In this document: positions 10,909 through 34,065 of the stretch, one piece after another | Numbering within the stretch: position 1 is the first letter of the stretch | Layout: the number at the start of each line of letters is the position of its first letter | Assembly (NCBI GenBank): GCA_017302295.1 | Contig: JAFLDS010000031.1 | Coordinates: forward strand, 1-34,065 | DNA length: 34,065 nucleotides | Direction of reading: 5' to 3' | Source: Thauera sp. | Lineage (GTDB): Bacteria > Pseudomonadota > Gammaproteobacteria > Burkholderiales > Rhodocyclaceae | Notes under the pieces: model-generated | Seen by the model: only the letters and a program-made list of their open reading frames with translations | The model's database searches: none | What the model was told of the DNA's origin: nothing | Made by a program: the position numbers and the translations under genes

Positions 10909-12083
10909 CCGCCTTCTTCGACGACTGGGACACGCCGGTTCGCCCTCGGGCAGCCACTGCTCCAGCCACTACGCCAGCCTCCCGCCAGGCAGACTCCCCG
11001 GCGTCCACGGTGACGCCCACGGCACCGGCATTCCGCCCCGACGCGGCCCTGTCCGCCACCGATGCCCGGCCGGGCGCGCTGGCGCCGGTGCGTGCTGCCG
11101 ACAAGCGCATCGTCAACGGCCAGGGTGACATCAACCAGCTCGCGCCCTTCAAGTACCCCTGGGCGTGGGAGTTCTTCCTCAACGCCAACAAGAACCACTG
11201 GACGCCGCTGGAAATCTCCATGGCGCAGGACGTTCACGACTACCACCACCGCCTGACACCGGCCGAGCGCCATGTGTTCGAGAACGTGCTGTCCTATCTG
11301 ACCACCTCGGACATCCTCGCCATGCGCAACATCGGCCTGGCGGTGATGGAGAAGATGACCGCGCCCGAACTGCAGATCTACCAGGCCCGCCAGGTGTATG
11401 AGGAAGCCCTGCACACCTGGACCTACCAGCACTGCATCGAAAGCCTGGGTCTGGACCAACAGGAGATCTACAACCGCTACCGCGTCGTGCCCGAGATCCA
11501 CGGCAAGATCGCGCTCGCCAACCGCCGGCTCGAGCGCGTGATGCGGGCCGACTTCGACCTCACCGACCGCGACAACCTGCACGAATTCGCACTCTCCTAC
11601 CTCTTCTTCGCGGCCATCTTCGAGGGCTGCTGGTTCTACAACGGCTTCACCCCCATCTTCGCGCTGCAGCGGCGCGGGCTGATGAAGGGCACGGCCGAGC
11701 AGTTGCAGTACATCATGCGCGACGAGGTGCTGCACTGCGCCTTCGGCATCCGCACCGTGCGCACGCTCATCGCCGAGGAAAACCTGCAGCTCGATCCCGC
11801 GACGCTCGCCCGCCTGTGGGAGGAAGCCGAGGCCGCCGAAACCGCCTACGCCGGCTACCTGCTGCGCGAGCCCATCCTTGGCTACTCGGCCGCGCAGCAC
11901 ATGGGCCAGTTCCGCTACATCGCCAACCGCCGCGCCCGCCAGCTCGGGTTGGCCGAGCCCTACCCCGGCGCGGAAAACGTGCTGCCTTGGCTGGACGAGC
12001 AGGCCAACCTGCGCAAGGAGAAGAACTTCTTCGAGACGCGGGTCACAGAGTATCAGACCGGCGGCGCACTGACCTGGGAGTGA
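10905..12083 (+). CDS. nrdB: class Ia ribonucleoside-diphosphate reductase, beta subunit
   Basis: A 392-aa radical-generating subunit. Dimetal-site segments are visible: VFENVLSYLTTSD, EEALHTWTYQHCIE (metal-ligand Glu and His; Tyr nearby), SYLFFAAIFEGCWFYNGF and MRDEVLHCAFGIRT. The C-terminal tail ETRVTEYQTGGALTWE resembles the peptide that docks into NrdA. The first 65 residues are a Pro/Ala-rich, probably disordered extension. The start is the ATG overlapping the nrdA stop (ATGA), so the two are translationally coupled. No clear terminator follows. Confidence 0.95.
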   Translation: MTAFFDDWDTPVRPRAATAPATTPASRQADSPASTVTPTAPAFRPDAALSATDARPGALAPVRAADKRIVNGQGDINQLAPFKYPWAWEFFLNANKNHWTPLEISMAQDVHDYHHRLTPAERHVFENVLSYLTTSDILAMRNIGLAVMEKMTAPELQIYQARQVYEEALHTWTYQHCIESLGLDQQEIYNRYRVVPEIHGKIALANRRLERVMRADFDLTDRDNLHEFALSYLFFAAIFEGCWFYNGFTPIFALQRRGLMKGTAEQLQYIMRDEVLHCAFGIRTVRTLIAEENLQLDPATLARLWEEAEAAETAYAGYLLREPILGYSAAQHMGQFRYIANRRARQLGLAEPYPGAENVLPWLDEQANLRKEKNFFETRVTEYQTGGALTWE

Positions 12084-13279: not shown

Positions 13280-13855
13280 ATGCCTAACAGCAACCAGACC
13301 GGAATGACCCACACCGTGGTCGACGGCTACTTCAAGTTCCTCAAATTCCTGATCGCTTTCTGTCTTCTGGCGATGGTGATCCTCGTGTTCGGCAACGTGT
13401 TCCTGCGCTACGCCTTCAATACCGGCATCACGGTTTCCGAAGAGCTCTCGCGCTGGTTTTTCGTCTGGATGACCTTCATCGGCGCCCTCATCGGCCTGCG
13501 CGAGCACTCCCACCTCGGCGTCGACTCCTTCGTCAATCGCCTGACACCGCGCGGCCGCCGCACCTGCCTGGTGCTGGCGCAGAGCCTGATGATCTATTGC
13601 TCCTGGCTGCTGCTGCGCGGCAGCTGGGACCAGACGCTCATCAACATCGAAGTCGAGGCGCCGTCTTCGGGAATGTCCGTCGCCTACGTCTATGGAATTG
13701 GCGTCTTCTTCGCCGCCAACGCCATCCTCATCCTGGTTTTCGATCTGTACCGGGCCGTCTCCGGCAAGCTGTCGGACGCGGAACTGGTGATGGTCAAGGA
13801 ATCCGAAGAAAACGTGCACGGTGACCCGCAAGACACCGCAGCCGCCAAGCACTGA
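13280..13855 (+). CDS. dctQ: TRAP transporter small permease DctQ
   Basis: A 191-aa inner-membrane protein with four hydrophobic helices (about residues 17-40, 55-75, 93-112, 134-156) and the family segment VFLRYAFNTGITVSEELSRWFFVWMTFIGA. With DctM it forms the membrane part of a sodium-driven importer fed by a DctP protein. The ATG at 13280 is preceded by GGGAG; an open extension to 13115 overlaps the dctP remnant and is not used. The gap to dctM is 14 nt. Confidence 0.92.
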   Translation: MPNSNQTGMTHTVVDGYFKFLKFLIAFCLLAMVILVFGNVFLRYAFNTGITVSEELSRWFFVWMTFIGALIGLREHSHLGVDSFVNRLTPRGRRTCLVLAQSLMIYCSWLLLRGSWDQTLINIEVEAPSSGMSVAYVYGIGVFFAANAILILVFDLYRAVSGKLSDAELVMVKESEENVHGDPQDTAAAKH

Positions 13856-13869
13856 GCAAGGAGACAAAA

Positions 13870-15147
13870 ATGACCGTAGCCGTCTTTCTCGGATCGCTGC
13901 TCGGCGCCATGGCGCTGGGCATGCCGATTGCCTTCGCGCTGCTGGTCTGCGGCATCGCACTGATGGTCCACCTGGACCTTTTCGATGCCCAGATACTGGC
14001 GCAGAACCTCATCAACGGCGCCGACAGCTTCCCGCTGATGGCTGTTCCCTTCTTCATGCTGGCCGGCGAGATCATGAACGCCGGCGGCCTGTCCAAGCGC
14101 ATCGTCAATATCGCCATGGCGATGGTCGGCCATGTGCGCGGCGGCCTCGGCTACGTTGCCATCCTGGCGTCCTGCATCCTGGCCTCGCTGTCGGGCTCTG
14201 CAGTGGCCGACGCGGCCGCGCTCGCCGCGCTGCTGGTGCCGATGATGGTGCGCGCCGGCCACAACCGCGAACGTTCGGCCGGCCTGATTGCCGCGGGCGG
14301 CATCATCGCGCCGATCATCCCGCCCAGCATCGGTTTCATCATCTTCGGCGTCGCCAGCGGCGTGTCGATCTCCAAGCTGTTCATGGCCGGCATCTTCCCG
14401 GGCGTCATGATGGGTCTGTCGCTGGTCGTGGCCTGGTGGTGGTTGGTGCGCAACGAAGACGTCGAGCCGCCGCCGCGCAAGTCGATGAAGGAGGTTCTCG
14501 CTGCCATCGCCGACGGCCTCTGGGCGCTGTTCCTGCCGGTGATCATCATCGTCGGCCTCAAGCTGGGCGTGTTCACGCCGACCGAGGCCGCCGTGGTCGC
14601 CGCGGTGTACTCGCTGTTCGTGGCGGTGTTCGTGTATCGCGAACTGAAGCCGAAGATGCTCTATCAGGTCTTCGTTTCTGCCGCCACGACAACCGCCACC
14701 GTCATGTTCCTGGTCGCCGCGGCGATGGTTTCGGCCTGGCTGATCACCGTGGCCGACCTTCCCAGCCAGGTGATCTCGCTGCTCGAGCCCTTCCTCGAGA
14801 GCCCGCGCATGCTGATGCTGATGATGATGATCCTGGTCGTGATCGTCGGCACCGCGATGGACATGACGCCGACCATCCTGATCCTGACCCCGGTGCTCAT
14901 GCCGCTGGTCAAGCAGGCCGGCATCGACCCGGTGTATTTCGGCGTGCTGTTCATCATCAACAACGCGATCGGCCTCATCACCCCACCGGTGGGCACGGTT
15001 CTGAACGTCGTCGCCGGGGTCAGCAAGGTCAGCATGAACGACGTGATGCGGGGCGTGTCGCCCTTCTTGTGGGCGCAGTTGCTGCTGCTCGGCCTGATGA
15101 TCGCCTTCCCCGCCCTGGTCACCGTGCCGGCCAGCTGGTTCTACTGA
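13870..15147 (+). CDS. dctM: TRAP transporter large permease DctM
   Basis: A 425-aa, very hydrophobic 12-helix permease. Family signatures are FFMLAGEIMNAGGLSKRI, LSGSAVADAAALAALLVPMM, GIIAPIIPPSIGFIIFG and GLITPPVGTVLNVVAGVS. It is the transport channel of the TRAP system for small carboxylates. AAGGAG precedes the ATG. The substrate is not readable from the permease; context suggests an aromatic or alicyclic acid such as quinate, shikimate or dehydroshikimate, which is inference. Confidence 0.94.
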   Translation: MTVAVFLGSLLGAMALGMPIAFALLVCGIALMVHLDLFDAQILAQNLINGADSFPLMAVPFFMLAGEIMNAGGLSKRIVNIAMAMVGHVRGGLGYVAILASCILASLSGSAVADAAALAALLVPMMVRAGHNRERSAGLIAAGGIIAPIIPPSIGFIIFGVASGVSISKLFMAGIFPGVMMGLSLVVAWWWLVRNEDVEPPPRKSMKEVLAAIADGLWALFLPVIIIVGLKLGVFTPTEAAVVAAVYSLFVAVFVYRELKPKMLYQVFVSAATTTATVMFLVAAAMVSAWLITVADLPSQVISLLEPFLESPRMLMLMMMILVVIVGTAMDMTPTILILTPVLMPLVKQAGIDPVYFGVLFIINNAIGLITPPVGTVLNVVAGVSKVSMNDVMRGVSPFLWAQLLLLGLMIAFPALVTVPASWFY

Positions 15148-19189: not shown

Positions 19190-19204
19190 GTGCGCAGTGC
19201 GCAC
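19190..19204 (+). promoter_or_regulatory. palindromic operator candidate, box A (aroE-quiC)
   Basis: GTGCGCAGTGCGCAC, matching the shared pattern GTGCGCNNNGCGNAC. Its centre (19197) is 49 bp before a -10-like TACAGT (19246-19251), the same distance as at the porin and aroQ. No good -35 is visible, which suits an activator-dependent promoter. The flank TTCTGTGCGCA is identical to that of box B. Confidence 0.6.
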
Positions 19205-19311
19205 GTTAGCGGCTCGGGCACCTTCTTCGGCGACGGGGCAGCGACTACAGTCTGGAATACATGCTGCGCAACAGCACATCCGCTTGATCCGCTTTCCAAG
19301 GAACCCCGAAC

Positions 19312-20184
19312 ATGAGCAAATCCCGACATCCCTCCATCATCTGCGGCCTGATCGGCTCCGGCATCCAGGCCTCGCTGACCCCGGCGATGCACGAGCAGGA
19401 GGGCGAAGCACAGGGCTTTCGCTACGTTTACAAGAAGATCGACCTCGACCCGCTGGGCCTCGGCGTCGCCGACCTCCCTGAACTTCTGACGGCAGCCAGA
19501 CGCATGGGATTTGCGGGTCTGAACATCACCTACCCTTGCAAGCAGGCGATCATTCCGCTGCTGGACGAGCTCTCCGACGAGGCGAAGGCGCTCAATGCCG
19601 TCAATACCGTGGTCATCAAGGACGGGCGCTTGATCGGCCACAACACCGACTGCTCCGGCTTCGCCGAAGGTTTCCGCCGCGGCCTGCCGGGCGCGAAGAT
19701 GGACAAGGTCGTGCAGCTGGGCGCGGGCGGCGCCGGTGCCGCGGTGGCGCACGCCGCCTTCAAGCTGGGCACGACACAGCTCACCGTGTTCGACATCGAC
19801 CCGGCGCGCGCCGCCGAGCTCGCCACCAGCCTGAATGCGCAGTTCGGCGAAGGCCGCTGCGTGGCCGGCACCGACCTCGCCCAGGCGATGGCCGAGACCG
19901 ACGGCCTGATCCACTGCACGCCCACCGGCATGGCCAAGCTGCCCGGGCTACCGCTGCCGGCCGAGCTGATCGACGGCCGCATCTGGGTCGCGGAGATCGT
20001 CTATTTCCCGCTCGAGACCGAGTTGCTGCGCGTTGCCCGCGCCAAGGGTTGCGCCACGCTGGACGGCGGCGGCATGGCGGTATTCCAGGCGGTCGGCGCC
20101 TTCCGTCACTTCACCGGCCTCGAACCGGATGCCGAGCGGATGCGCGCGCACTTCCTGTCGATGGTCAACACCCCGAACACCTGA
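19312..20184 (+). CDS. aroE: shikimate/quinate dehydrogenase, NAD-type (AroE family)
   Basis: A 290-aa cytoplasmic enzyme. Substrate-site motifs are SLTPAMHE, NITYPCKQ (catalytic Lys) and GHNTDCSGF. The dinucleotide site is GAGGAGAAVAHAAFKLG, followed by VFDIDPARA. The acidic residue after the second strand points to NAD rather than NADP, as in the quinate/shikimate dehydrogenase QsuD of Corynebacterium, which it resembles strongly from memory. It should oxidise shikimate to 3-dehydroshikimate and perhaps quinate to 3-dehydroquinate, that is, a catabolic enzyme rather than the biosynthetic AroE. AAGGAA precedes the ATG; quiC follows after 42 nt. Confidence 0.9.
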   Translation: MSKSRHPSIICGLIGSGIQASLTPAMHEQEGEAQGFRYVYKKIDLDPLGLGVADLPELLTAARRMGFAGLNITYPCKQAIIPLLDELSDEAKALNAVNTVVIKDGRLIGHNTDCSGFAEGFRRGLPGAKMDKVVQLGAGGAGAAVAHAAFKLGTTQLTVFDIDPARAAELATSLNAQFGEGRCVAGTDLAQAMAETDGLIHCTPTGMAKLPGLPLPAELIDGRIWVAEIVYFPLETELLRVARAKGCATLDGGGMAVFQAVGAFRHFTGLEPDAERMRAHFLSMVNTPNT

Positions 20185-20226
20185 CTCCCACCACGCCGTA
20201 CCAAGCCCCGACCCAAGGAAGCCTCG

Positions 20227-22146
20227 ATGCGTCGATCCATCGCCACCGTCTGCCTGAGCGGCACCCTCGAAGAAAAGCTGGAAGCCATCGCCTCGGCCCG
20301 TTTCGACGCCGTCGAGATCTTCGAGAACGACTTCATCAACTACCACGGTTCGGCGGCCGATGTGCGCCGCATGTGCCATGACCTCGGGCTGGGTATCGAT
20401 CTCTACCAGCCGTTCCGCGACTTCGAGGGCGTCGGTGACGAGCAGTTCCGGCGCAATCTCGATCGCGCCGAGCGCAAGTTCGACATCATGGAGGAGCTCG
20501 GCGCGCCGCTGCTGCTGGTGTGCTCGAACGTGTCGCCGCTCGCCATCGCCGACGACGCCCGCTCCGCCGCCCAGCTCCACGAACTGGCCGAGCGCGCCGC
20601 GCGTCGCAACCTCTCCATCGGCTTCGAGGCGCTCGCCTGGGGCCGCCACGTGCGCCACTACGAACAGGCGTGGAAGATCGTCAGGACAGCCGACCACCCG
20701 CACCTGGGCATCGTGCTCGACAGCTTCCACATGCTGTCGCTCGGCGACAGCCCCGACGGCATCGCCGACATCCCGGGGGAGCGCATCGCCTTCGTGCAGC
20801 TGGCCGACGCACCGGTCAAGGAAATGGATGTGCTGCAGTGGAGCCGCCATTACCGCTGCTTCCCCGGCCAAGGCAACTTCGACCTGACCACCTTCATGGA
20901 GAAGCTGCTGCTGGCCGGCTACACCGGGCCACTGTCGCTGGAGGTGTTCAACGACCATTTCCGCGCCGCCCCCACCCGCCCGACTGCGATCGACGCCTAC
21001 CGTTCGCTGCTCTATCTCGAGGAGGCGGCGAAGAACCGGCTTGCGACCGTCGCTGCCGACGCGACGTTGACGACCGCGCGCAAGGCAGCGGCGGAGCGGC
21101 TCGAGCTCTTCAACCCGCCGCAACTGCCGGCGCTCGAGGGGCTGGCCTTCATCGAGTTCGCGGTCGACACCGAGGCCGAGCGCGCGCTCGCGCAGGTGCT
21201 GGCCACCCTCGGTTTCCGCCGTGCCGGCAAGCACCGGTCGAAGGCGGTGACGCTCTACCGCCAGGGCGACATCGACATCATTCTGAACGCGGAGCCGGGC
21301 TCCTTCGCGCGCAACCACTTCCTGCAGCACGGGCCGTCGATCTGTGCGCTCGGCATCGCCACCGAGGACAGCGTGCGCGCGCTGAACCGCGCGACGGCCT
21401 ATGGTTGCCCGCGCTTCGAGGGGCGCATCGGCCCCAATGAGTTGAAGATTCCGGCGGTGCGGGCCCCCGACGGCAGCCTGATCTATTTCGTGCCCGCGAG
21501 CCAGGGCTCGAAGCGCCTGTTCGAGATCGACTTCCTGCTCGAGGACGAGACCGCGGTCGCCCCCGGCGATGCCGACCTGCGCGCGGTGGACCATATCGCC
21601 CAGGGGCTGCCGCAGCTGCGCCAGGACGCCTGGGTGCTGTTCTATCGCGCCATCCTGGGGGCGGAGCCCGGCGAGAGTGTCGACCTGGTCGACCCCTACG
21701 GCCTGATCAGCACGCGCGGGGTCGCCACGTCCGATCGCAAGCTGCGCTTCGTGCTGAACGTCTCGGAAAGCGACACTACGCACACCGCCCGCACCATGTC
21801 GCAGCTGGCCGGCGCGAGCGTGCATCACATTTCCTTCACCTGCACCGACATCTTCGCGACCGTGCGCAGGATGCGCAGCCAGGGCGTGAAGTTCATTCCG
21901 ATCTCACCCAACTACTACCTCGACCTGCCGACGCGCTTCCCGCTCGAGGACGACTTCGTCGCGCGGCTGCAGGAACTCGGCATCCTCTACGACCGCAGCG
22001 ACGACGGCGAGTACTTCCATGTATTCACCAACGTGTTCGCCGAACGCTTCTTCTTCGAGATCGTGCAGCGGGCGGAGGGCTACGACGGCTACGGTACGCC
22101 CAATGCGCCGGCGCGCATGGTGTCGCACATGCGCTTCAAGGGCTGA
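20227..22146 (+). CDS. quiC: 3-dehydroshikimate dehydratase QuiC (TIM barrel fused to VOC/HPPD-like domain)
   Basis: A 639-aa enzyme converting 3-dehydroshikimate to protocatechuate. The N-terminal AP-endonuclease-2-type TIM barrel (about 1-275) carries metal ligands Glu134 (GFEALAWG), Asp165 with His168 (LDSFH), Gln191 (VQLAD) and Glu239 (LEVFND), the same positions as in Pseudomonas QuiC1. The C-terminal domain (about 300-639) is 4-hydroxyphenylpyruvate-dioxygenase-like, with a possible metal triad His456 (DHIAQG), His534 (HHISF) and Glu611 (FEIVQR); its role in this family is not settled. AAGGAAG precedes the ATG. It is in one operon with aroE. Confidence 0.95.
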   Translation: MRRSIATVCLSGTLEEKLEAIASARFDAVEIFENDFINYHGSAADVRRMCHDLGLGIDLYQPFRDFEGVGDEQFRRNLDRAERKFDIMEELGAPLLLVCSNVSPLAIADDARSAAQLHELAERAARRNLSIGFEALAWGRHVRHYEQAWKIVRTADHPHLGIVLDSFHMLSLGDSPDGIADIPGERIAFVQLADAPVKEMDVLQWSRHYRCFPGQGNFDLTTFMEKLLLAGYTGPLSLEVFNDHFRAAPTRPTAIDAYRSLLYLEEAAKNRLATVAADATLTTARKAAAERLELFNPPQLPALEGLAFIEFAVDTEAERALAQVLATLGFRRAGKHRSKAVTLYRQGDIDIILNAEPGSFARNHFLQHGPSICALGIATEDSVRALNRATAYGCPRFEGRIGPNELKIPAVRAPDGSLIYFVPASQGSKRLFEIDFLLEDETAVAPGDADLRAVDHIAQGLPQLRQDAWVLFYRAILGAEPGESVDLVDPYGLISTRGVATSDRKLRFVLNVSESDTTHTARTMSQLAGASVHHISFTCTDIFATVRRMRSQGVKFIPISPNYYLDLPTRFPLEDDFVARLQELGILYDRSDDGEYFHVFTNVFAERFFFEIVQRAEGYDGYGTPNAPARMVSHMRFKG

Positions 22147-22154
22147 AGGCGGCA

Positions 22155-22173
22155 GGCGAGCGCAAAGCTCGCC
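22155..22173. terminator. hairpin between convergent genes
   Basis: GGCGAGC-GCAAA-GCTCGCC in the 45-nt gap between the quiC stop and the end of the convergent TIM-barrel gene. There is no T-tract; it may serve as a weak two-way terminator or mRNA end. Confidence 0.4.
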
Positions 22174-22191
22174 GGACCCAATGGCGCCGCG

Positions 22192-23061
22192 CTAGACATG
22201 CGCGGCGCGGACGACCGTGCCCCGCCGACGTGGCAGATCGACATGGCGCAGCAGCGCAAGCAGCCAGCGCAGTGATTCCATCGCACGCTCGGCGACGAAA
22301 TCGGCGGGCAGCTGCGCATAGTCGTCATTGCTTGCGCTCAGGCAGAAGGCGCCGTGAAAGCCGACCACGCGCAGGCGGCGGATCAGCTCGACGATCTCGT
22401 CACCGCACGCGCCATCACCGGGCAGCACGCGCAGGTGGCGCTCCTCCGCCGCGTGCTCGAGGCGGATCAGGTCGCACAACTCGACGAGGAACAACTGGTC
22501 GAGGTAGCAGCGATCGAGCGCATTGAGCCCGCCATCGCTGGTGAACAGGTGCCCAGTGTCCAACGCAAGGCCGAAATTGGCCCGTTCCACCGCATTCACG
22601 ACCTCTTCCGCGCCGAAAAGATCTGCCGCCACGGTGGAGCCGGGCGTCGCCTGGTAAGTCACCCGGATACCCTTGGGCACGGCGAGCGTCGATAGCTTCG
22701 CGAGGTCGCGCGCGACCCGTCCGGGTTCCAGACCTGCATCCGGCGCAGCGCTCGCCTTCACCAGCAGCATTTGCGCACCGACCCGATGGCAGAGCGTCAG
22801 CAAGCCCTGGGCGACGTGGACCTTGTACTCGTGCAGCGGTCCGGCATGGCCCTCGAAGTCCTCGAGCTGCTTCAGCGCCAGCACCTTGATGCCGGACTCC
22901 CGCACCATGCGCACCGCCATCTCGACACCCTGCGGATGGCTGGCCAGGTCCGCCGCAGACAGCACCACCTGGCGAAAGCCGCGGCTGCCGGCCGCCTTCA
23001 GCCGCACCTCGAGCGGGCCGGCCATGCTGCAGACATCGAGCGCAACGGAATCGAAATCCAC
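22192..23061 (-). CDS. TIM-barrel protein resembling QuiC N-domain with altered active site
   Basis: A 289-aa sugar-phosphate isomerase/epimerase-like barrel. Aligned by eye with the QuiC barrel, it keeps Asp168 and His171 (LDTGH) but has Gln137 (VTYQATPG) for QuiC Glu134, Glu194 (VELCD) for Gln191, and Ser242 (CLSASND) for Glu239. Three of the four metal ligands are changed, so dehydroshikimate dehydratase activity is doubtful. The start is GTG at 23061 with AGGAG upstream. It follows the VOC gene by 57 nt in the same direction, so the two probably form an operon. Another isomerase or lyase chemistry, or a non-catalytic role, remains open. Confidence 0.8.
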   Translation of the reverse strand: MDFDSVALDVCSMAGPLEVRLKAAGSRGFRQVVLSAADLASHPQGVEMAVRMVRESGIKVLALKQLEDFEGHAGPLHEYKVHVAQGLLTLCHRVGAQMLLVKASAAPDAGLEPGRVARDLAKLSTLAVPKGIRVTYQATPGSTVAADLFGAEEVVNAVERANFGLALDTGHLFTSDGGLNALDRCYLDQLFLVELCDLIRLEHAAEERHLRVLPGDGACGDEIVELIRRLRVVGFHGAFCLSASNDDYAQLPADFVAERAMESLRWLLALLRHVDLPRRRGTVVRAAHV

Positions 23062-23118
23062 GACGGTCTACTCCTGTGACGTGCTGGGGAAAGGGGTGCG
23101 GCGCGCAGCAGCCCGCGC

Positions 23119-23985
23119 TCAGGGCGCTGCGGACTCCGGCGCTCGGTTGGCCACGAGCTCGAAGGTCACGCTGCCGAGATAGACCTGGGTGAGCGCGCCC
23201 TTCTCGCCCGGATGCAGACTTCCCTCGTCGATGAACACCACCCCGCGCCGGCGCAGCTCTCGCGTCGCCGCAGGCACGTCCGCTGCGCCAAAGCCGATGC
23301 GCACCAGACCCTCCTCCCAATGCACCTCCTCGGCGCCGTCGGGCGGCTCGATGAGTTGCAGATAGAAACGGCCACAGGGGCTCTCGAGCAGCGTTCCCTT
23401 GGGCAGGATGCCGAAGAAGTGCCCTTCGGGCAGTGCGCGGAAGCCCAGGATCTGCGAATAGAAATCCACCCATTCGGCGGTCCGGAACGCGCCCACCGCC
23501 TGCACGACGCCGAAGTAGTGCAGGCCGCCGATGCCAGCCGGATGAGGATTCATGCCCGGCAAGGGCACGAAGTCCACGTCGTAGATCGAGAAATCGCGGA
23601 AACGGTCGACGAAGTAGATCGAGCTGTCGCCGCTGCCGAGAATGCCGGGGATGTTCAGCTCCATCGCCGCTGCACGGCGCGGAACTTCCCAGGCGCCGGC
23701 ATCGAGCGCATGGCGCATCGCGAAGGCGGCGTCGCGAACACGGAACGCGATCGCCGACAGAAAGGTGGCGGCTGGCGCGGAGCCGCTCGGCTCCGCATTC
23801 ACGATCAGGTTCATCGGTCCCTGCCGGTACAGCACGACCTCGCGCGAACGGTGACGCGCGACCGGAGCAAAGCCGAGCAGCTGCAACACCCCGCCGAGCG
23901 CCTGGGGCTGTGGCGTGACGAATTCGATGAACTCGACGCCATCGATGCCCAGAACGTTCCGCGGTTCGGGAATGAGTTCGTTCAT
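23119..23985 (-). CDS. VOC/HPPD-like protein resembling QuiC C-domain
   Basis: A 288-aa two-module VOC (glyoxalase/dioxygenase fold) protein. GVEFIEFVTPQ, GFAPVARHRS and REVVLYRQGPMNLIVNAEP closely parallel the start of the QuiC C-domain. In the second module His156 (GLHYFGVVQ) and Glu276 (TFELVANR) occupy metal-ligand positions, but the middle His is replaced by Arg229 (LVRIGFG). The ATG at 23985 (MNELIPEP) is chosen over the open extension to 24081. It is divergent from the LysR gene and precedes the TIM-barrel gene; together they look like a split QuiC. Confidence 0.82.
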   Translation of the reverse strand: MNELIPEPRNVLGIDGVEFIEFVTPQPQALGGVLQLLGFAPVARHRSREVVLYRQGPMNLIVNAEPSGSAPAATFLSAIAFRVRDAAFAMRHALDAGAWEVPRRAAAMELNIPGILGSGDSSIYFVDRFRDFSIYDVDFVPLPGMNPHPAGIGGLHYFGVVQAVGAFRTAEWVDFYSQILGFRALPEGHFFGILPKGTLLESPCGRFYLQLIEPPDGAEEVHWEEGLVRIGFGAADVPAATRELRRRGVVFIDEGSLHPGEKGALTQVYLGSVTFELVANRAPESAAP

Positions 23986-24123
23986 GTTTGGAGAACCTTG
24001 AGACCAGCTGGCCGATTGGGTATGAAAGCGTACCGCGATGCAAGGCGTCGAGCGACTGCGCGGGCGGGGCAAGAATAGCACCGGCGCACGAAAAAACGCA
24101 GTCTCCCGGACTCACCCGCAGCC

Positions 24124-24139
24124 CCCGCATGCGTGCGGG
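24124..24139. promoter_or_regulatory. small dyad in the LysR divergent promoter region
   Basis: CCCGCA-TGCG-TGCGGG within the 236-bp gap between the VOC and LysR genes. LysR regulators usually bind such dyads between divergent genes, but this one is GC-rich and does not show a clear T-N11-A. Weak candidate. Confidence 0.3.
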
Positions 24140-24221
24140 CGCAGCACCGGCCGTCCGACCTTCAAAGGCTTATCATCGCGGTGTCGTTCAATTCGAGAGC
24201 GCGGGCAAATTCCGTCCACCC

Positions 24222-25154
24222 ATGAGTTCTGTCGATCATTCGCACCTGGACGGCAAATTGCTGCAACTGCTCGTTGCCGTCGTCGAGGAGGGCTCGATCA
24301 CGCGCGCGGCACACCGCCTGGGCGTCACTCAATCGGCGGTGTCGCATCTGCTCGGGAAACTGCGCGCGATCGTCGGCGACCCGCTCGTGGTCAAGTCGGG
24401 GCGCGGCATCGTGCCCACCGTGCGGGCAGAGGCGCTGGCGGTGCAGGCGCGCACGCTGCTCGAGGAAATGCGCCGCTTCGCCGTCTCGGCGGATTTCGAT
24501 CCAGCGCACTTGCGCACGACCTTCACGATTGCCGCCAACGACTTCCAGCGCGACCTGCTGCTGCCGCCGCTGCTGCTGCGCCTGCGCGAACGCGCGCCCG
24601 GGGTGAGCCTGCGCGTGATTCCCTCCGCCGTACCGACCGCCGAGATGCTGCGTGACGGGCATTGCGACCTGATCGTTTCGCCGCGCCCTCCCGACGCCAG
24701 CGACGTGCTGCAGAAGCGACTGTTCGGCGACGACTACCGCGTGTTCTTCGATCCGTCCCGTCGCGCGCCACCGCTGACACTGGACGAATACGTCGCGGCC
24801 GAACACGTCACCGTCGTCTATGAGCCTCGTCGCGCGCTCGACATCGACCAGACGTTCGCTGCGCACGGCATCGTCCGTCGTTTCGTGGCGATGGTGCCGA
24901 GCTTCAGCGGCATCCCCGCCTTCCTGCGCGGCACGACCCGGCTCGCCACGGTACCCGGCCTGCTGCGCCGGACAGCCATGTCCGGCCTGTCCGACTGTCC
25001 GCTGCCCGTCGCCTCGCCGATCCTGCCCATGTACATGATCTGGCACCTGCGCTATCGCCACGACCCGGTGCATTGCTGGCTGCGCGCGGAACTCGAGGCC
25101 GTCGTCACGCCGGCGCTGACCGAAGCCGCCGACGCAGCCCGGACGGAGGGCTGA
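24222..25154 (+). CDS. LysR-family transcriptional regulator
   Basis: A 310-aa protein. The N-terminal winged helix-turn-helix LLQLLVAVVEEGSITRAAHRLGVTQSAVSHLLGKLR (about 10-45) is followed by a PBP2-type effector domain (FTIAANDFQRDLLLPPLLLRLRERAPGVSLRV, PTAEMLRDGHCDLIVSP). The ATG at 24222 (MSSVDHSHL) fits the family length; an open extension to 23988 would add 78 unlikely residues. Divergent placement makes the VOC/TIM pair its likely target. It may also control aroE-quiC or the porin. Effector unknown; an intermediate such as dehydroshikimate or protocatechuate is only a guess. Confidence 0.92.
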   Translation: MSSVDHSHLDGKLLQLLVAVVEEGSITRAAHRLGVTQSAVSHLLGKLRAIVGDPLVVKSGRGIVPTVRAEALAVQARTLLEEMRRFAVSADFDPAHLRTTFTIAANDFQRDLLLPPLLLRLRERAPGVSLRVIPSAVPTAEMLRDGHCDLIVSPRPPDASDVLQKRLFGDDYRVFFDPSRRAPPLTLDEYVAAEHVTVVYEPRRALDIDQTFAAHGIVRRFVAMVPSFSGIPAFLRGTTRLATVPGLLRRTAMSGLSDCPLPVASPILPMYMIWHLRYRHDPVHCWLRAELEAVVTPALTEAADAARTEG

Positions 25155-25163
25155 AAGGCGATT

Positions 25164-25179
25164 GTTGCAGCGCTGCAAC
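25164..25179. repeat. 16-bp perfect palindrome after lysR
   Basis: GTTGCAGCGCTGCAAC lies 9 bp past the LysR stop codon. Without a loop it is more like a protein-binding site than a terminator. Function unknown. Confidence 0.45.
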
Positions 25180-25203
25180 GTCGCTCATTCAGCGGTCATG
25201 AGC

Positions 25204-25240
25204 GGGGCTGTTCTGTGCGCATAGCGAACAGAACAGCCCC
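25204..25240 (+). promoter_or_regulatory. operator dyad with box B upstream of the porin
   Basis: GGGGCTGTTCTGT, an 11-bp centre, then its exact reverse complement. Nested in it is box B, GTGCGCATAGCGAAC (25215-25229), a member of GTGCGCNNNGCGNAC. It is also close to the IclR-type PcaR site GTTCGATAATCGCAC read on the other strand. The centre 25222 is 49 bp before a -10-like TATCAT (25271-25276). It could also act as a terminator for lysR, although only four T follow after several bases. Confidence 0.6.
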
Positions 25241-25404
25241 CTTGTGCCGTTTTCCCGATCCGTAGCTCCCTATCATCCACTCGCCGAATCAAGTACCCCG
25301 CTCATCGCAGACCGGCGGACTGCCACCGAGGCAGCGCCGTGCAGGACCGCGAAGGGGGAGGCCCGCCTGACGACGGCCTGATATCAATGTGAGGAGATGT
25401 GAAC

Positions 25405-26535
25405 ATGCAGAAAAGATTTATCGCCCTGGCAATCGCCGGCCTGATTTCCGGCCCGGCCCTCGCCCAGTCGAACGTGACCGTGTACGGCCTGGTGGACATG
25501 GGATACGCCTACCGCGGCGACAATATCGTCGATGGAGTAAAGAATCGCAGCGGCATCGATTCCGGCCAGGCCGCAGGCAGCCGCCTCGGCTTCCGCGGCG
25601 TAGAGGATCTGGGCAACGGCCTGAAGGCGGGCTTCCTGCTCGAGCAGGGCCTGTTCGCCGACACCGGCGCGGGTCGCGCCGACGGCAATTTCTCGCGCCA
25701 GTCCTACCTCTACCTGGCGCACGATGCCGCCGGCACGGTGCAGCTCGGCCGTGTCTATGCACCCCAGGACAGCTTCATCAGCGGCTTCGATCCCTTCGCC
25801 GGCGGTACCGTCGCCCAGGTCGGCAACATCTGGAGCCTGCGCGAAATCCGCTACAACAACACGATCAAGTACATCTCGCCGAGCTTCTCGGGCTTCAACG
25901 TCACCGCTGCCTATTCGATGAGCATCGGCACCAACCAGTCGGGCGCGAGCGCACCGGCAACCGATCAGGTCAATGAACGGCTGGGCAACGAGAACGACAT
26001 CCGTGGCTGGGCCATCAGCCCGATGTACCAGAACGGCCCGCTGAAGGTCGGCGCCAGCTTCCAGCAGCGCAAGACGCACGACCCGCTGGCCGCCAATACC
26101 GACCGCAACAAGCGGACGACCTGGGACCTGGGCGCATCGTACGACTTCGGTGTCGCGAAGCTGTCCGCGATGTATGGCCAGGGCCGCGACAAGGATGCCG
26201 ACGCGATCGCCGGTGCCGAAGCCAAGATCCGCCAGTACTTCATCGGCGCCACCGTGCCGGTATTCACCAACGGCGCCATCCTGGCCTCCTATGGCCACTC
26301 GAAGAACACTGCGGATGGTGCCAACGACGCCACGGCCACGCAGTGGGCGGTGGGCTACAACCATGCGCTGTCCAAGCGCACCGGCCTCTACGCCGCGTAC
26401 TCCGACATCTCCAACAAGGACGGCCTGACCGTCGCGGGCGTCGACCAGGGCCTCAAGGCCGCTGTCGGTGATGCCTCCTACTCGGGCACTGGCTATCAGC
26501 GCGGCTTCCAGGTGGGCATCAAGCACGCGTTCTGA
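25405..26535 (+). CDS. betaproteobacterial general porin (OmpC-like, trimeric type)
   Basis: A 376-aa outer-membrane beta-barrel. A signal peptide ending ...GPALAQ is followed by SNVTVYGLVDMGYAY and GSRLGFRGVEDLGNGLKAGFLLEQG, hallmarks of Burkholderia/Bordetella-type porins, and the protein ends QVGIKHAF with the terminal Phe needed for BAM assembly. GAGGAG stands 8 nt before the ATG at 25405; a GTG at 25399 is too close. It is likely a substrate-entry porin for the catabolic genes, as it has the same upstream box. A strong terminator follows. Confidence 0.93.
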   Translation: MQKRFIALAIAGLISGPALAQSNVTVYGLVDMGYAYRGDNIVDGVKNRSGIDSGQAAGSRLGFRGVEDLGNGLKAGFLLEQGLFADTGAGRADGNFSRQSYLYLAHDAAGTVQLGRVYAPQDSFISGFDPFAGGTVAQVGNIWSLREIRYNNTIKYISPSFSGFNVTAAYSMSIGTNQSGASAPATDQVNERLGNENDIRGWAISPMYQNGPLKVGASFQQRKTHDPLAANTDRNKRTTWDLGASYDFGVAKLSAMYGQGRDKDADAIAGAEAKIRQYFIGATVPVFTNGAILASYGHSKNTADGANDATATQWAVGYNHALSKRTGLYAAYSDISNKDGLTVAGVDQGLKAAVGDASYSGTGYQRGFQVGIKHAF

Positions 26536-26576
26536 TCCGGGTCGAAGACTCTTACTCTCTGGCGTTTCTCCTTTTC

Positions 26577-26603
26577 GAGCGGCCTGCGGGTCGCTCTTTT
26601 TTT
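26577..26603 (+). terminator. rho-independent terminator after the porin
   Basis: GAGCGGCC-TGCG-GGTCGCTC (8-bp stem with one G-U pair) followed by seven T. Confidence 0.9.
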
Positions 26604-26625
26604 GCCCGACGCCACCGCGTGACCC

Positions 26626-26654
26626 AAAAAAATCGGCCGCACTCCGGCGGCCGA
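26626..26654 (-). terminator. rho-independent terminator after aroQ
   Basis: On the minus strand TCGGCCGC-CGGAGT-GCGGCCGA forms a perfect 8-bp stem followed by seven T. It faces the porin terminator, isolating the two convergent genes. Confidence 0.9.
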
Positions 26655-26689
26655 ACATCTTGCCCGAGCCGGCTTGCGCCGGCCGTGCC

Positions 26690-27127
26690 TCAGCGCAGCT
26701 TCGCGGCGATGAACTGCAGCGCGAGGTTGTAGCCCTGCGTGCCGAAGCCGGCCATCACCGCCTCGGCGACGTCGGACAGGTAGGAGTGATGGCGGAAGGC
26801 TTCGCGCTTGTGCACATTGGAGATGTGCACTTCCACGAACGGGATCGCCACGCCGCCGAAGGCGTCGCGGATCGCCACGCTGGTGTGCGTATAGGCGCCC
26901 GGGTTGATCAGCACGAACGTCACGCCCTCGAGCCGCGCCTGATGGATGCGATCGACGATCGCTCCTTCATGGTTGCTCTGGAAACAGTCCAGTTCCAGGC
27001 CGAGCTCCTTCGCCTGCGCGCGCAAGCCGGCCTCCACGTCGGCCAGCGTGGTCGAGCCGTAGATGTGCGGCTCGCGCGTGCCGAGCAGATTGAGATTGGG
27101 ACCGTTGATGACGAGGACTTTGCTCAT
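26690..27127 (-). CDS. aroQ: type II 3-dehydroquinate dehydratase
   Basis: A 145-aa dodecameric-type enzyme interconverting 3-dehydroquinate and 3-dehydroshikimate. Family motifs are all present: [21 protein letters not shown] (Arg and catalytic Tyr), [33 protein letters not shown] and [21 protein letters not shown] (Glu, His, Arg). The ATG at 27127 is the usual start; an open extension to 27256 would run over box C. The enzyme can serve biosynthesis, but its place and box suggest the catabolic direction from quinate. Confidence 0.95.
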
Positions 27128-27230
27128 GCGATGTGTGCTCCTGTGTGGATTGCGGGCCACGCATCGCGCGACCCGATGCCGACACTTTAATTCAGCGCAG
27201 GGACGAGACCACGTGCGTGCGCGCATGCGT

Positions 27231-27245
27231 GTGCGCCATGCGCAC
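27231..27245 (-). promoter_or_regulatory. palindromic operator candidate, box C (aroQ)
   Basis: GTGCGCCATGCGCAC, matching GTGCGCNNNGCGNAC on either strand. Its centre (27238) is exactly 49 bp before a minus-strand -10-like TAAAGT (27184-27189) that would serve aroQ. Confidence 0.6.
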
Positions 27246-27259
27246 CGCTCGCACAAGCA

Positions 27260-28228
27260 CTACGCAGCCGCGCCGATGAGGCCGTTCGCCTTCATCAACC
27301 ACACCACCGCGCTGATCGTCACGAAGGACAACACCGTGGTCGCCACCAGTGCCGCGGCGGCAATGCCCTGCTCGCCGTATTTCTGCGCCACGATCGGGTA
27401 GATGCTCGTCATCGGCATGCAGGCGTTGAGGATCAGGGCAGCCCTGATCGCCGGATCGACACCCGGCAGCACCAGCAGCAGCGCGGCGACGGCAAGCGCG
27501 TGCAGGCCCAGCTTGCCCGCCATGATGAGCCCGATGTTCGCCCCCATGCCGCGCATGCTCAACCCGGCCAGCGTGCCGCCAATGTAGAACAGCGCCACCG
27601 GCGCCGAGGCCGTCGCCAGCATATCCACCGCACGTGCGAGGGGAAGCGGAATGTTCACCCCGAGCAGCGAGCAGGCCACGCCGGCGACGATGCCCAGAAT
27701 CATCGGGTTACGCACCAGGCTGCCAACCACATTGCGCAGCACCTGACCCACGCGCCCATGGCCGCTGCTGCCGATCTCGGCGATCGTCATCAGCAGCGGC
27801 AGCATGATCATGCTCTCCACCACTAGGTAGATGGCCAGGTTGGTGTTGGCTGCAGCGCCGAACAGCGGCTGGGCGATCGGCAGACCGACGAATGCGCTGT
27901 TCGACACCGCCATGCCCATCGCCGTCATCGCCCCCGCCTGCAGCTTGCGACGCTGAACGAGGACGGTGAAGGCGATGCCAAGCCCGGCCACGGCGAAGGA
28001 CGCGAGCACATAGACCAGCAGCGCATGGACGTCGATCAGCTCGCCCAGCGCGCGCTGCGACAAGGCCTTGAACAGCAGCGCCGGCAGCGCGAAGCTGATG
28101 ACGAACACCCCCAGCGCGCGAAGCTCCGGTGCGGCCAGCATGCGCAGCCGCACCGCGCCGAAACCGATGGCGATGAGGACGTAGATCGGCCCGGTGATGG
28201 CCAGAATGTCGAACAGACTCGCGAGCAC
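27260..28228 (-). CDS. AEC-family (auxin efflux carrier) permease, second copy
   Basis: A 322-aa membrane protein with about ten helices. It is closely similar to the copy at 18162-19121 in FDILAITGPIYVLIAIGF, FALPALLFKALSQRALGELID and VSNSAFVGLPIAQPLFG. The start is GTG at 28228 with AGGAGG five bases upstream. The next gene in this direction, aroQ, starts 132 nt after its stop, with box C in between, so aroQ has its own promoter. Substrate unknown; a dicarboxylate or ring acid is possible. Confidence 0.85.
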   Translation of the reverse strand: MLASLFDILAITGPIYVLIAIGFGAVRLRMLAAPELRALGVFVISFALPALLFKALSQRALGELIDVHALLVYVLASFAVAGLGIAFTVLVQRRKLQAGAMTAMGMAVSNSAFVGLPIAQPLFGAAANTNLAIYLVVESMIMLPLLMTIAEIGSSGHGRVGQVLRNVVGSLVRNPMILGIVAGVACSLLGVNIPLPLARAVDMLATASAPVALFYIGGTLAGLSMRGMGANIGLIMAGKLGLHALAVAALLLVLPGVDPAIRAALILNACMPMTSIYPIVAQKYGEQGIAAAALVATTVLSFVTISAVVWLMKANGLIGAAA

Positions 28229-28313
28229 GCCTGCCTCCTGGGTGAAGCCGGCACGTCGTCTCGCGACGCGTCGGGGGTGGGGACGCCGCGACGCCCGCGC
28301 CGCGAAATTCGGA

Positions 28314-29642
28314 TCAGTGCAGCTTCACGTGCGGCTCGGTGCGGCGCGTGATCATGCGCGCCAGCGTGTCGAGGGCGACCTTCACCCAGCCATGCAGCGC
28401 GAGCTCGTGCATCTTGTACAGCGAGGTGTACATCAGCTTGGCGAAACGACCCTCGATGAACAGGTCGCCCTTGGCGAGCCCGCCCATCATGTTGCCGACG
28501 GTGCTGAACTCGCCCAGCGACACCAGCGAACCGAAGTCCTTGTACTGGTAGTCCTGCAGCGGCTTGGATGCAAGCCGGCGGCGGATCTGCTTCAACAGGT
28601 GCGAGGCCTGCTGGTGCGCGGCCTGCGCGCGCGGCGGCACGAAGGCGTTCTTCTCCGGCCAGGGGCAGGCGGCACAGTCGCCCAGGGCGAAGATGTTGTC
28701 GTCCAGCGTGGTCTGCAGGGTCTGGCGCACCACGAGCTGGTTGATGCGGTTGGTTTCGAGTCCGTCGAGGCGGCTGAGGAACTCGGGCGCCTTGACGCCC
28801 GCGGCCCACACCACCAGTTCGGCCGGCAGCACGCGGCCATCGGCCAGGCGCACGCCGTTGGGCAGCACCTCGGCCACCTTGGCATTGGTGTGCACATCGA
28901 CGCCGAGCCCGCGCAGCAGGGCCTCGGTGGAATTCGACAGGCGCTCGGGCAGGGCCGGCAGCACGCGTGGCGCGGCCTCGATGACGGAGAGCTGGATGTC
29001 CTTGTCGGCGTCTACCCGGTCGAGGCCGTAGGCGACCACCTCGCGCGTGGTGTGGTGCAGCTCGGCGGCCAGCTCCACGCCGGTCGCGCCGGCGCCGATG
29101 ATCGCAACGTGCAGCTGTTCGGGGCGCAGCGGCGTGCGCTGGGCGTGCGCGCGCACGCAGGCATTGACCATGCGCACATGGAAGCGGCGCGCATCGGCCG
29201 GCGTCTCCAGCTTCAGCGCATGCTCGCGTACGCCCGGCGTGCCGAAGTCGTTGCTCTGGCTACCGACGGAAATGATCAGCGTGTCGTAGGGGAAGGAGCG
29301 CGCCGGCGTCACCTCGTTGCCTTCGTCATCGACGAAGGGGGCGACGTGGACCAGGCGCTGCGCGCGGTCGAGCCCGGTCATCTCGCCGATGCGGAAATGG
29401 AAATGGTGCCAGTGCGCCTGCGCCAGATAACCGACTTCGTGGTCACCGATGTCCATGCTGCCGGCGGCGATCTCGTGCAGCTTGGGTTTCCAGATATGGG
29501 TGCGTGTGCGGTCGATCAGCGTGACGTCGGCCTTGCCGCGGCGGCCCAGCGTGTCACCGAGACGGGTGGCCAGCTCGAGACCGCCCGCACCGCCGCCGAC
29601 GATCACGATGCGATGCATAGCGTTGTTCGCGCTTGTATTCAT
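28314..29642 (-). CDS. type II NADH:quinone dehydrogenase-like FAD flavoprotein
   Basis: A 442-aa pyridine nucleotide-disulphide oxidoreductase-fold protein. The FAD site is RIVIVGGGAGGLELATRLGD; the NAD site is VAIIGAGATGVELAAEL. The second FAD segment is FALGDCAACP, followed by VPPRAQAAHQQASHLLKQIRRRL as in Ndh. The C-terminal region is likely a membrane-surface anchor. It would pass electrons from NADH to quinone without pumping protons. AAAGG stands 7 nt before the ATG at 29642; an internal ATG at codon 9 is possible. Box D lies about 107 bp upstream. Confidence 0.88.
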   Translation of the reverse strand: MNTSANNAMHRIVIVGGGAGGLELATRLGDTLGRRGKADVTLIDRTRTHIWKPKLHEIAAGSMDIGDHEVGYLAQAHWHHFHFRIGEMTGLDRAQRLVHVAPFVDDEGNEVTPARSFPYDTLIISVGSQSNDFGTPGVREHALKLETPADARRFHVRMVNACVRAHAQRTPLRPEQLHVAIIGAGATGVELAAELHHTTREVVAYGLDRVDADKDIQLSVIEAAPRVLPALPERLSNSTEALLRGLGVDVHTNAKVAEVLPNGVRLADGRVLPAELVVWAAGVKAPEFLSRLDGLETNRINQLVVRQTLQTTLDDNIFALGDCAACPWPEKNAFVPPRAQAAHQQASHLLKQIRRRLASKPLQDYQYKDFGSLVSLGEFSTVGNMMGGLAKGDLFIEGRFAKLMYTSLYKMHELALHGWVKVALDTLARMITRRTEPHVKLH

Positions 29643-29748
29643 TGGAAACCTTTCGAAAGGGGGAGCGCCACCGGGGCGCGAATCTCGAGAATTCTAACAG
29701 CGCAATGCGCCATCGACGTGCGAAAGTGGCGGTGGCACAACAGCTTAC

Positions 29749-29763
29749 GTGCGCACAGCGGAC
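29749..29763 (-). promoter_or_regulatory. operator candidate, box D (NDH-2 gene)
   Basis: GTGCGCACAGCGGAC matches GTGCGCNNNGCGNAC. The minus-strand -10-like TAGAAT (29691-29696) is 60 bp from the centre, about one helical turn further than the 49 bp seen at boxes A-C. Weaker member of the set. Confidence 0.4.
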
Positions 29764-33772: not shown

Positions 33773-34065
33773 TCAAGCCACGTTTTCGACGATCACCGCC
33801 ACGCCCTGGCCGCCGCCGGCGCAGGCCGAGGACACGCCGTACTGCAGGCCGGCCGCGCGCGCCGCGCGGGCCACCGTGTGCGTCAGGCGCACACCCGAGG
33901 CGCCCAGCGGGTGGCCGAGGGCGATGGCGCCGCCGTTCACATTCACCTTGTCGCGATCCAGCCCCAGCTCGCGCTCACAGGCGAGATACTGGGCGCCGAA
34001 GGCTTCGTTGATCTCGATCCGGCCGATGTCGCCGACGGTGAGGCCGGCGAGCCTGGCCGCGGCGA
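33773..34065 (-). CDS. acetyl-CoA acetyltransferase/thiolase, C-terminal part (cut by window end)
   Basis: The last 96 codons are visible. Motifs are [35 protein letters not shown] (catalytic His) and [16 protein letters not shown] (second active-site Cys), as in all thiolases. The N-terminal half lies beyond base 34065. It is first in the visible minus-strand unit thiolase-SDR-thioesterase-acyl-CoA dehydrogenase, with a 26-nt gap to the SDR. It would cleave a 3-ketoacyl-CoA. Confidence 0.93.

Follow-up and report, generated by a model that had tools for sequence, protein, structure and literature searches.

Thauera is a genus known for the degradation of aromatics. The DNA analysed here, a Thauera contig of 34,065 nucleotides (the window; contig C25 of the 4.11-Mb assembly G000), carries genes for a quinate/shikimate dehydrogenase (aroE), a 3-dehydroshikimate dehydratase (quiC), a porin, a 3-dehydroquinate dehydratase (aroQ) and the dehydrogenase NDH-2, each of these transcription units being preceded by a short palindromic box. 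An earlier sequence-only reading had placed the four boxes under one pattern, and a search with GTGCGCNNNGCGNAC indeed returned these four sites as the only exact matches in the window; all are intergenic (coding and intergenic status was assigned throughout with our own simple gene caller). As argued below, it is very likely that the boxes in front of aroE-quiC, the porin gene and aroQ belong to an autoregulated IclR-type activator, which would act from a position near −61 and drive the uptake of quinate/shikimate and its conversion to protocatechuate. The features of the window that bear on this proposal are the following:

19190..19204, + strand: Box A, perfect palindrome GTGCGCAGTGCGCAC, exact match; proposed IclR operator for aroE-quiC
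19246..19251, + strand: predicted −10 hexamer TACAGT, 49 bp from the Box A centre
19312..20184, + strand: aroE-like quinate/shikimate dehydrogenase (Pfam PF08501)
20227..22146, + strand: quiC-like 3-dehydroshikimate dehydratase fused to an HPPD-like domain (PDB 5hmq, 703 bits)
25215..25229, + strand: Box B, GTGCGCATAGCGAAC, one half-site variant, exact match; proposed porin operator
25271..25276, + strand: predicted −10 hexamer TATCAT, 49 bp from the Box B centre
25405..26535, + strand: porin gene (Porin_4)
27231..27245, − strand: Box C, perfect palindrome GTGCGCATGGCGCAC on the minus strand, exact match; proposed aroQ operator
27184..27189, − strand: predicted −10 hexamer TAAAGT, 49 bp from the Box C centre
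26690..27127, − strand: aroQ, type II 3-dehydroquinate dehydratase (TIGR01088, 204 bits, over the cut-off)
29749..29763, − strand: Box D before NDH-2, GTGCGCACAGCGGAC, exact match; judged to lie outside the regulon
24222..25154, + strand: lysR, rival regulator (PF00126/PF03466); judged not to bind the box
13280..15147, + strand: dctQ-dctM of a TRAP transporter; the matching 5' part of dctP is on contig C12 with two boxes, the breakpoint (about 13032) lying between

The aroE-like protein matches the PDB entries 2nlo (shikimate dehydrogenase; 274.4 bits, the best match) and 3jyo (quinate/shikimate dehydrogenase; 274.3 bits), and the quiC-like protein reaches 802 bits against NF042435, under the curated cut-off of 1200.

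An iclR gene on a second contig is flanked by the palindrome

Strict palindromes of the form GTGCGCNNNGCGCAC occur four times in the assembly. Two are in the window, and the other two, the only ones outside it, flank an iclR gene on contig C12 (L020:13271-14089, minus strand). Its product belongs to the IclR family (PF01614, 142.4 bits with a cut-off of 24; PF09339, 57.1 bits with a cut-off of 22), and the PDB entry closest to it in sequence is 8eju, labelled as a Pca-regulon regulator. Six IclR_C genes are present in G000, and only the C12 gene stands between exact boxes. Its neighbours encode a 4-hydroxybenzoate 3-monooxygenase, TRAP transporter proteins, LigB-domain dioxygenases (no similarity links the LigB-domain protein to the canonical T. 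propionica LigB), a catechol-2,3-dioxygenase-like protein and a relative of 3-hydroxybenzoate hydroxylase (2dkh, 741 bits).

Among 28 relatives from the same genus, iclR was found at ≥72% identity in five (G002, G016, G017, G021 and G023), and exactly these five possess an aroE gene at ≥86% identity. In each of them iclR and aroE-quiC reside on one contig, and the iclR promoter has a box. Every one of the six Thauera genomes in which the gene was found has such a box upstream of iclR, as have two contigs of metagenome-assembled genomes (MAGs; L142 and L143); close matches of the C12 protein fall in Thauera, for instance in Thauera propionica KNDSS-Mac4. Judged from these sequence data, the C12 protein is with high probability the regulator. 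The sequence-only reading had recognized an IclR-type site, guessed at a PcaU-like protein and tied the sites, as one regulon, to quinate and protocatechuate; the guess was a good one, for the gene exists elsewhere in G000 and is contig-linked to aroE-quiC in five relatives.

Compared by eye in five genomes and one MAG contig, the iclR promoter has the layout TTGnnn, a gap of 17-18 bp, TAnnGT and then the box, which begins at the predicted −10 region. This arrangement suggests that IclR represses its own gene.

The dctP gene adjoining iclR is broken in G000 into a 5' part on C12 (L020:15339) and a 3' part that lies in the window (about 13032). Both breakpoints share a 9-bp stretch, and genes for an IS21-type IstB and a transposase-domain protein lie beyond the C12 break. 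Since dctP is broken, dctQM is cut off from the box-bearing promoter in this assembly.

Box and promoter spacing are retained in related genomes

In G016 and G021, boxes precede the same genes as in the window, namely aroE (G016 L061:9607; G021 L063:9312), the porin gene (perfect palindromes at L061:17023 and L063:3207) and aroQ (L061:19055; L063:1176, the latter one base off the strict palindrome). An ungapped comparison of the three promoters over G000, G016 and G021 revealed identity in 73-87% of the box columns, and in 8-36% of the columns upstream and 13-26% of those in the spacer. The conservation before orthologous genes that the sequence-only reading called for is seen at aroE, porin and aroQ and is missing at NDH-2. 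The genes are arranged differently in G002, G017 and G023, where aroE and quiC follow dctQM, a small gene lies between the two pairs (in G002 a Usp gene) and the box in the iclR-dctQ intergenic region heads the run; G002 and G017 are very close relatives, with 278 of 283 IclR residues alike by position. No box was present in the 16 kb read from G024, a genome with an aroE gene at 74% identity and no iclR.

Distances are given between the centre of the box and the base at which the TAnnnT hexamer starts. They amount to 49 bp at aroE (TACAGT), porin (TATCAT) and aroQ (TAAAGT) and to 60 bp at NDH-2 (TAGAAT), exactly as the sequence-only reading had it. The first three coincidences were picked by that earlier reader, but the spacing recurs beyond the window at further promoters. 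Across G000, G016 and G021 it is 49, 50 and 49 bp at aroE (TACAGT at 50 bp in G016, TAGAGT at 49 bp in G021) and 49 bp throughout at aroQ, with TAAAGT unchanged in G016 and G021. The dctQM-aroE operon has it at 49 bp in all of G002, G017 and G023, the second dctP box at 50 bp in three of three cases, and ligA2, a gene for a LigB-type dioxygenase, at 49 bp; on MAG contigs L142 and L143, TAAAAT is found at 50 bp before dctP. The box of the TctC operon is followed by TAGAGT at 49 bp in G023 (L153:2981) and by TAGATT at 50 bp in G017 (L062:15871), and the dctP-aroQ operon of T. propionica and G017 carries a variant box, GTTCGCCTGGCGCAC (opposite strand GTGCGCCAGGCGAAC), 49 bp before TAGATT. A TAnnnT hexamer placed +49 or +50 from an intergenic centre has a null rate of 0.0074 (762 of 102,370). 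At iclR's own promoter the 49/50 spacing is absent.

The earlier statement that these promoters have no good −35 region applies to all 17 target promoters examined, where the best match to TTGACA at a spacing of 15-19 bp reaches 2-4 of 6 positions (mean 3.1, vs 2.6 at random places); a trace of the element is visible as a T at the start position of the 16-bp-spaced hexamer in 13 of the 17. With 49-50 bp between box and hexamer at the aroE, aroQ, dctQ, second dctP, ligA2, TctC and dctP-aroQ promoters, the activator-like position near −61 proposed before gains support. Site placement, as judged from the predicted −10 sequences, and the weak −35 regions fit a class I activator, which would contact RNA polymerase.

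Location of the palindromes in genomes with and without iclR

Four of the 13 genomic places of the exact pattern fall in the 34-kb window, which represents 0.8% of the assembly. Allowing two mismatches gives no enrichment in the window (53 sites where 58.6 are expected), so that the signal is confined to the exact boxes. Numbers of strict palindromes in iclR-bearing genomes (2-10) overlap those in same-genus genomes without the gene (0-6), and the reversed control is similar. Their location was compared between the six iclR-bearing genomes and nine of the 23 same-genus genomes that lack iclR, leaving out one of 35 palindromes in the former (a G021 place) and 12 of 29 in the latter. Strict palindromes are intergenic in 20 of 34 cases in the first group vs 1 of 17 in the second (Fisher 2.5e-4), and the 49/50 spacing is present at 10 of the 20 intergenic sites of iclR-bearing genomes vs 1 of 30 coding sites (Fisher 1.5e-4), both values being optimistic because orthologous sites were counted separately and are not independent. 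None of the 14 coding palindromes of iclR-bearing genomes shows the spacing, nor does the single intergenic site of the genomes without iclR, in which one coding site has it.

All 18 sites aligned for a motif fit GTGCG-N5-CGMAC, having been chosen with a similar pattern and without the G017 sites and the variant box of the dctP-aroQ operon.

The box in front of NDH-2

The sequence-only reading counted NDH-2 among the regulon members, which our data do not bear out. We rejected this candidate because the box is missing from both close orthologous promoters and has a low motif score. The NDH-2 promoters of G016 and G021 (proteins 92% identical) lack a box and keep a stretch, ATTCTCGAGATT, downstream (TTAAAATTCTCGAGATT in G016, TATTCTCGAGATT in G021); a 54% identical homologue in G023 has no box either, and in G002, G017 and G024 no orthologue was found at E ≤ 1e-60. 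Box D scores 14.0 vs 17.9-23.9 for the 18 sites, from which the motif was built and which it then scores, and a match within a coding region at 33878 scores higher (15.7). Box D is probably a coincidence, and less probably a site peculiar to this species and set back by one more helical turn.

Proposed mode of action and alternative explanations

From the box, its conservation, its linkage to iclR and its spacing, all of them features of the DNA, we infer that the IclR protein encoded on C12, probably of the PcaR/PcaU/PobR type, binds the box as its operator. At its own promoter, where the box abuts the predicted −10 region, binding would cause autorepression; at the targets, with the centre near −61 before a weak −35 region, it would activate by class I-type recruitment of RNA polymerase. 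The TRAP proteins (dctP, dctQM) and the porin would take up quinate/shikimate, the aroE and aroQ products would form dehydroquinate or dehydroshikimate from it, and the quiC product would yield protocatechuate; the LigB-type dioxygenase gene would be a further target in G000. The likely inducer is protocatechuate or one of the intermediates formed along the quinate route, protocatechuate being suggested by analogy with PcaU (PMC4213383, in the part covered). A palindrome spotted by eye in one contig has in this way led to a regulator on another, and a likely regulator, operator and target list can be named for quinate/shikimate use in Thauera. The constant spacing amounts to a precise claim on the contact between IclR and RNA polymerase and provides a strong rule for finding further targets.

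Several observations weigh against this interpretation. Over the whole genome, the exact pattern occurs no more often than its reversed control, with 17 strand matches each; the scan proposed by the sequence-only reading gave no enrichment. The C12 protein scores 281.9 bits against TIGR02431 (PcaR/PcaU/PobR), 2.85 under the cut-off of 284.75; its orthologues scanned with this model all exceed it (7 of 7; 285.3-301.1). The porin orthologues of G016 and G021 carry CATCAT at the same offset, which fails the strict TAnnnT rule, and a hexamer at 49/50 bp is missing in the direction of the catechol-2,3-dioxygenase-like gene and from the first, iclR-proximal box toward dctP. Identical −10 columns amount to 50% at porin and 100% at aroQ, and there are none at aroE, where one genome is shifted by 1 bp; beyond the −10 region 5% of the columns are identical at aroE, and conservation extends there at porin (53%) and aroQ (47%). 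Ten of the 20 intergenic palindromes of iclR-bearing genomes are without the spacing, some of them on contigs with no regulon gene in the stretch read, and the Fisher values carry the bias noted above.

Many IclR proteins repress, and the box overlaps the iclR promoter, as would suit a protein that acts mainly as a repressor and is relieved by quinate metabolites. However, the target boxes stand 49-50 bp before the −10 hexamer, upstream of the core promoter, at a distance kept across largely diverged spacers, and the −35 matches are weak. We regard repression at the targets as unlikely.

The LysR protein encoded at 24222, which the sequence-only reading named as the other candidate, might itself bind the box and activate the genes. 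LysR activators often bind near −60, and two findings speak for LysR and against IclR: orthologues (71-79%) are present in all five iclR-bearing relatives, G024 having none at E ≤ 1e-60, and a T-N11-A can formally be read in the box. Since co-occurrence does not separate the two proteins, boxes were sought at the lysR promoter, and none was found. In G000, G016 and G021 the best sequence there has 3-4 mismatches of 12, and no box lies beside lysR in G002, G017 and G023. In G002 lysR faces ligA across 87 bp that hold no box; the same is true of G023, where an early ligA start call makes for a short gap. The iclR-dctQ box is separated from lysR by 12-13 kb in G002 and G017, and in G023 the two are on different contigs; the dctP-aroQ box of G002 and G017 is found on the far side of aroQ and dctP, 1.7 kb from lysR. 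With a boxless promoter in six genomes, LysR is a poor candidate, and its control of the boxes is very improbable. LigR-type LysR regulators control ligAB; the window LysR, which is of another protein family than IclR, likewise has orthologues divergent from canonical ligAB in T. propionica (L169:1624-3816) and G023 (L170), which suggests that it regulates protocatechuate 4,5-cleavage.

Still less probable is that another IclR paralogue binds the boxes. The genome offers six IclR_C genes, and in G017 and G023 the box of the TctC operon, which is of the same type, adjoins a second IclR gene whose product is 25% identical to the first. Yet it is the C12 gene alone that lies between exact boxes in G000, and the C12 iclR that is linked to aroE-quiC in relatives (linkage in the relatives was looked at for this gene alone). 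The two IclR proteins possibly share one operator code.

A chance origin of the boxes as palindromes of GC-rich DNA, which the lacking genome-wide enrichment would allow and which probably applies to NDH-2 and the coding matches, is highly improbable given their positional conservation, which already contradicts it at aroE, porin and aroQ, and their 49/50 spacing at aroE, aroQ, dctQ, dctP, ligA2, TctC and dctP-aroQ.

Relation to known IclR systems

The operator of Pseudomonas putida PcaR, an IclR protein that controls pca genes, overlaps the core promoter, whereas the Thauera box is found near −61. The published PcaR motif of this bacterium, WWWRKTCGATWATCGSAYRRW, shares the TCG...CG core (PMC8222616; this and the other papers are cited for the parts covered), and the opposite strand of Box B agrees by eye at 12 of 15 positions with the PcaR site GTTCGATAATCGCAC given in the sequence-only reading. 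Corynebacterium glutamicum PcaR, also an IclR protein, recognizes nearly the same palindrome, GTTCGC-N3-GCGAAC, with half-sites GTTCGC in place of the GTGCGC of Thauera (PMC8222616). More generally, the box follows the consensus of IclR group 1 operators, GTNCG-N5-6-CGNAC, and quinate/shikimate genes together with 4-hydroxyphenylpyruvate genes form a recurrent IclR regulog set (iii) (PMC8222616).

PcaU of Acinetobacter baylyi ADP1 is an IclR protein that controls its own promoter and the divergent catabolic promoter of an operon including qui genes (PMC4213383), and its motif core, GTTCG..CGMAC, resembles the Thauera box (PMC8222616). PcaU differs in serving ortho-cleavage pca genes and in needing a third, external half-site (PMC8222616); the Thauera targets, unlike those of PcaU, comprise TRAP and porin uptake genes and dispersed aroE, aroQ and quiC. 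A third half-site as in PcaU/PobR was not found, an exact GTNCG or CGNAC recurring at no more than 2 of the 17 promoters per offset within 45 bp. The covered parts of PMC3572157 and PMC12455638 hold nothing on the position of IclR operators, and PMC6449761, as far as covered, deals with other aromatic regulators in Betaproteobacteria.

The earlier label of an undescribed regulon is too strong as it stands. No paper devoted to this Thauera regulon came up in literature searches, hits on Thauera together with quinate being judged by title and the opening of the abstract, and the main text of PMC8222616 does not name Thauera; that paper already describes the motif class and links IclR regulogs to quinate/shikimate genes. 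The kind of system is already known, and the rigid spacing is the fresh part. Tentatively, and without preferring the idea, we suggest an IclR activator dedicated to quinate/shikimate, which would be no orthologue of PcaU or PcaR and would work only from a rigid class I position. Palindrome, 49-50 bp and TAnnnT hexamer might then move as a unit when Thauera operons are reshuffled, as with the T. propionica aroQ that lies behind the TRAP gene dctP; the head of every new operon would then carry both box and spacing.

Additional observations

In GR16-43 (58% identity), the region between iclR and an aroE-like gene contains only a box with two mismatches, which is no more than suggestive. For more distant IclR homologues (30-41%), five of six stretches (L067-L070, L072, L073) are free of intergenic palindromes of the pattern searched for. 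The exception is L067 from G039, a member of another family: about 50 bp upstream of the gene for a 41% identical homologue it has a GTTCGTATAGCGAAC palindrome, which lacks a TAnnnT hexamer at 49/50. Just upstream of this homologue (L067:8454-8487), an exact GTTCG-type palindrome and an imperfect one are separated by about 19 bp, as estimated by eye, resembling the tandem IclR sites in the covered part of PMC8222616.

G052, from another family of the same order, has 23 strict GTGCGCNNNGCGCAC palindromes vs 4 in the control, two pairs of them exactly 61 bp apart; these are perhaps another regulon or a repeat family.

A nearly perfect inverted repeat of 37 bp (window 25204-25240) follows directly after lysR; it has Box B at its middle and may double as the lysR terminator. 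A terminator hairpin alone was rejected as an explanation of Box B because folding is weak in both orthologues (z of −2.2 and −1.1, compared with −6.5 in G000).

On C12, two near-identical pairs of a LigB-domain gene and a small CMD-domain gene (L020:5851-7203 and 10513-11865) flank the 3-hydroxybenzoate-hydroxylase-like gene and a LysR gene. The copies are identical at 279 of 284 and 155 of 157 residues, and one of the two carries a box.

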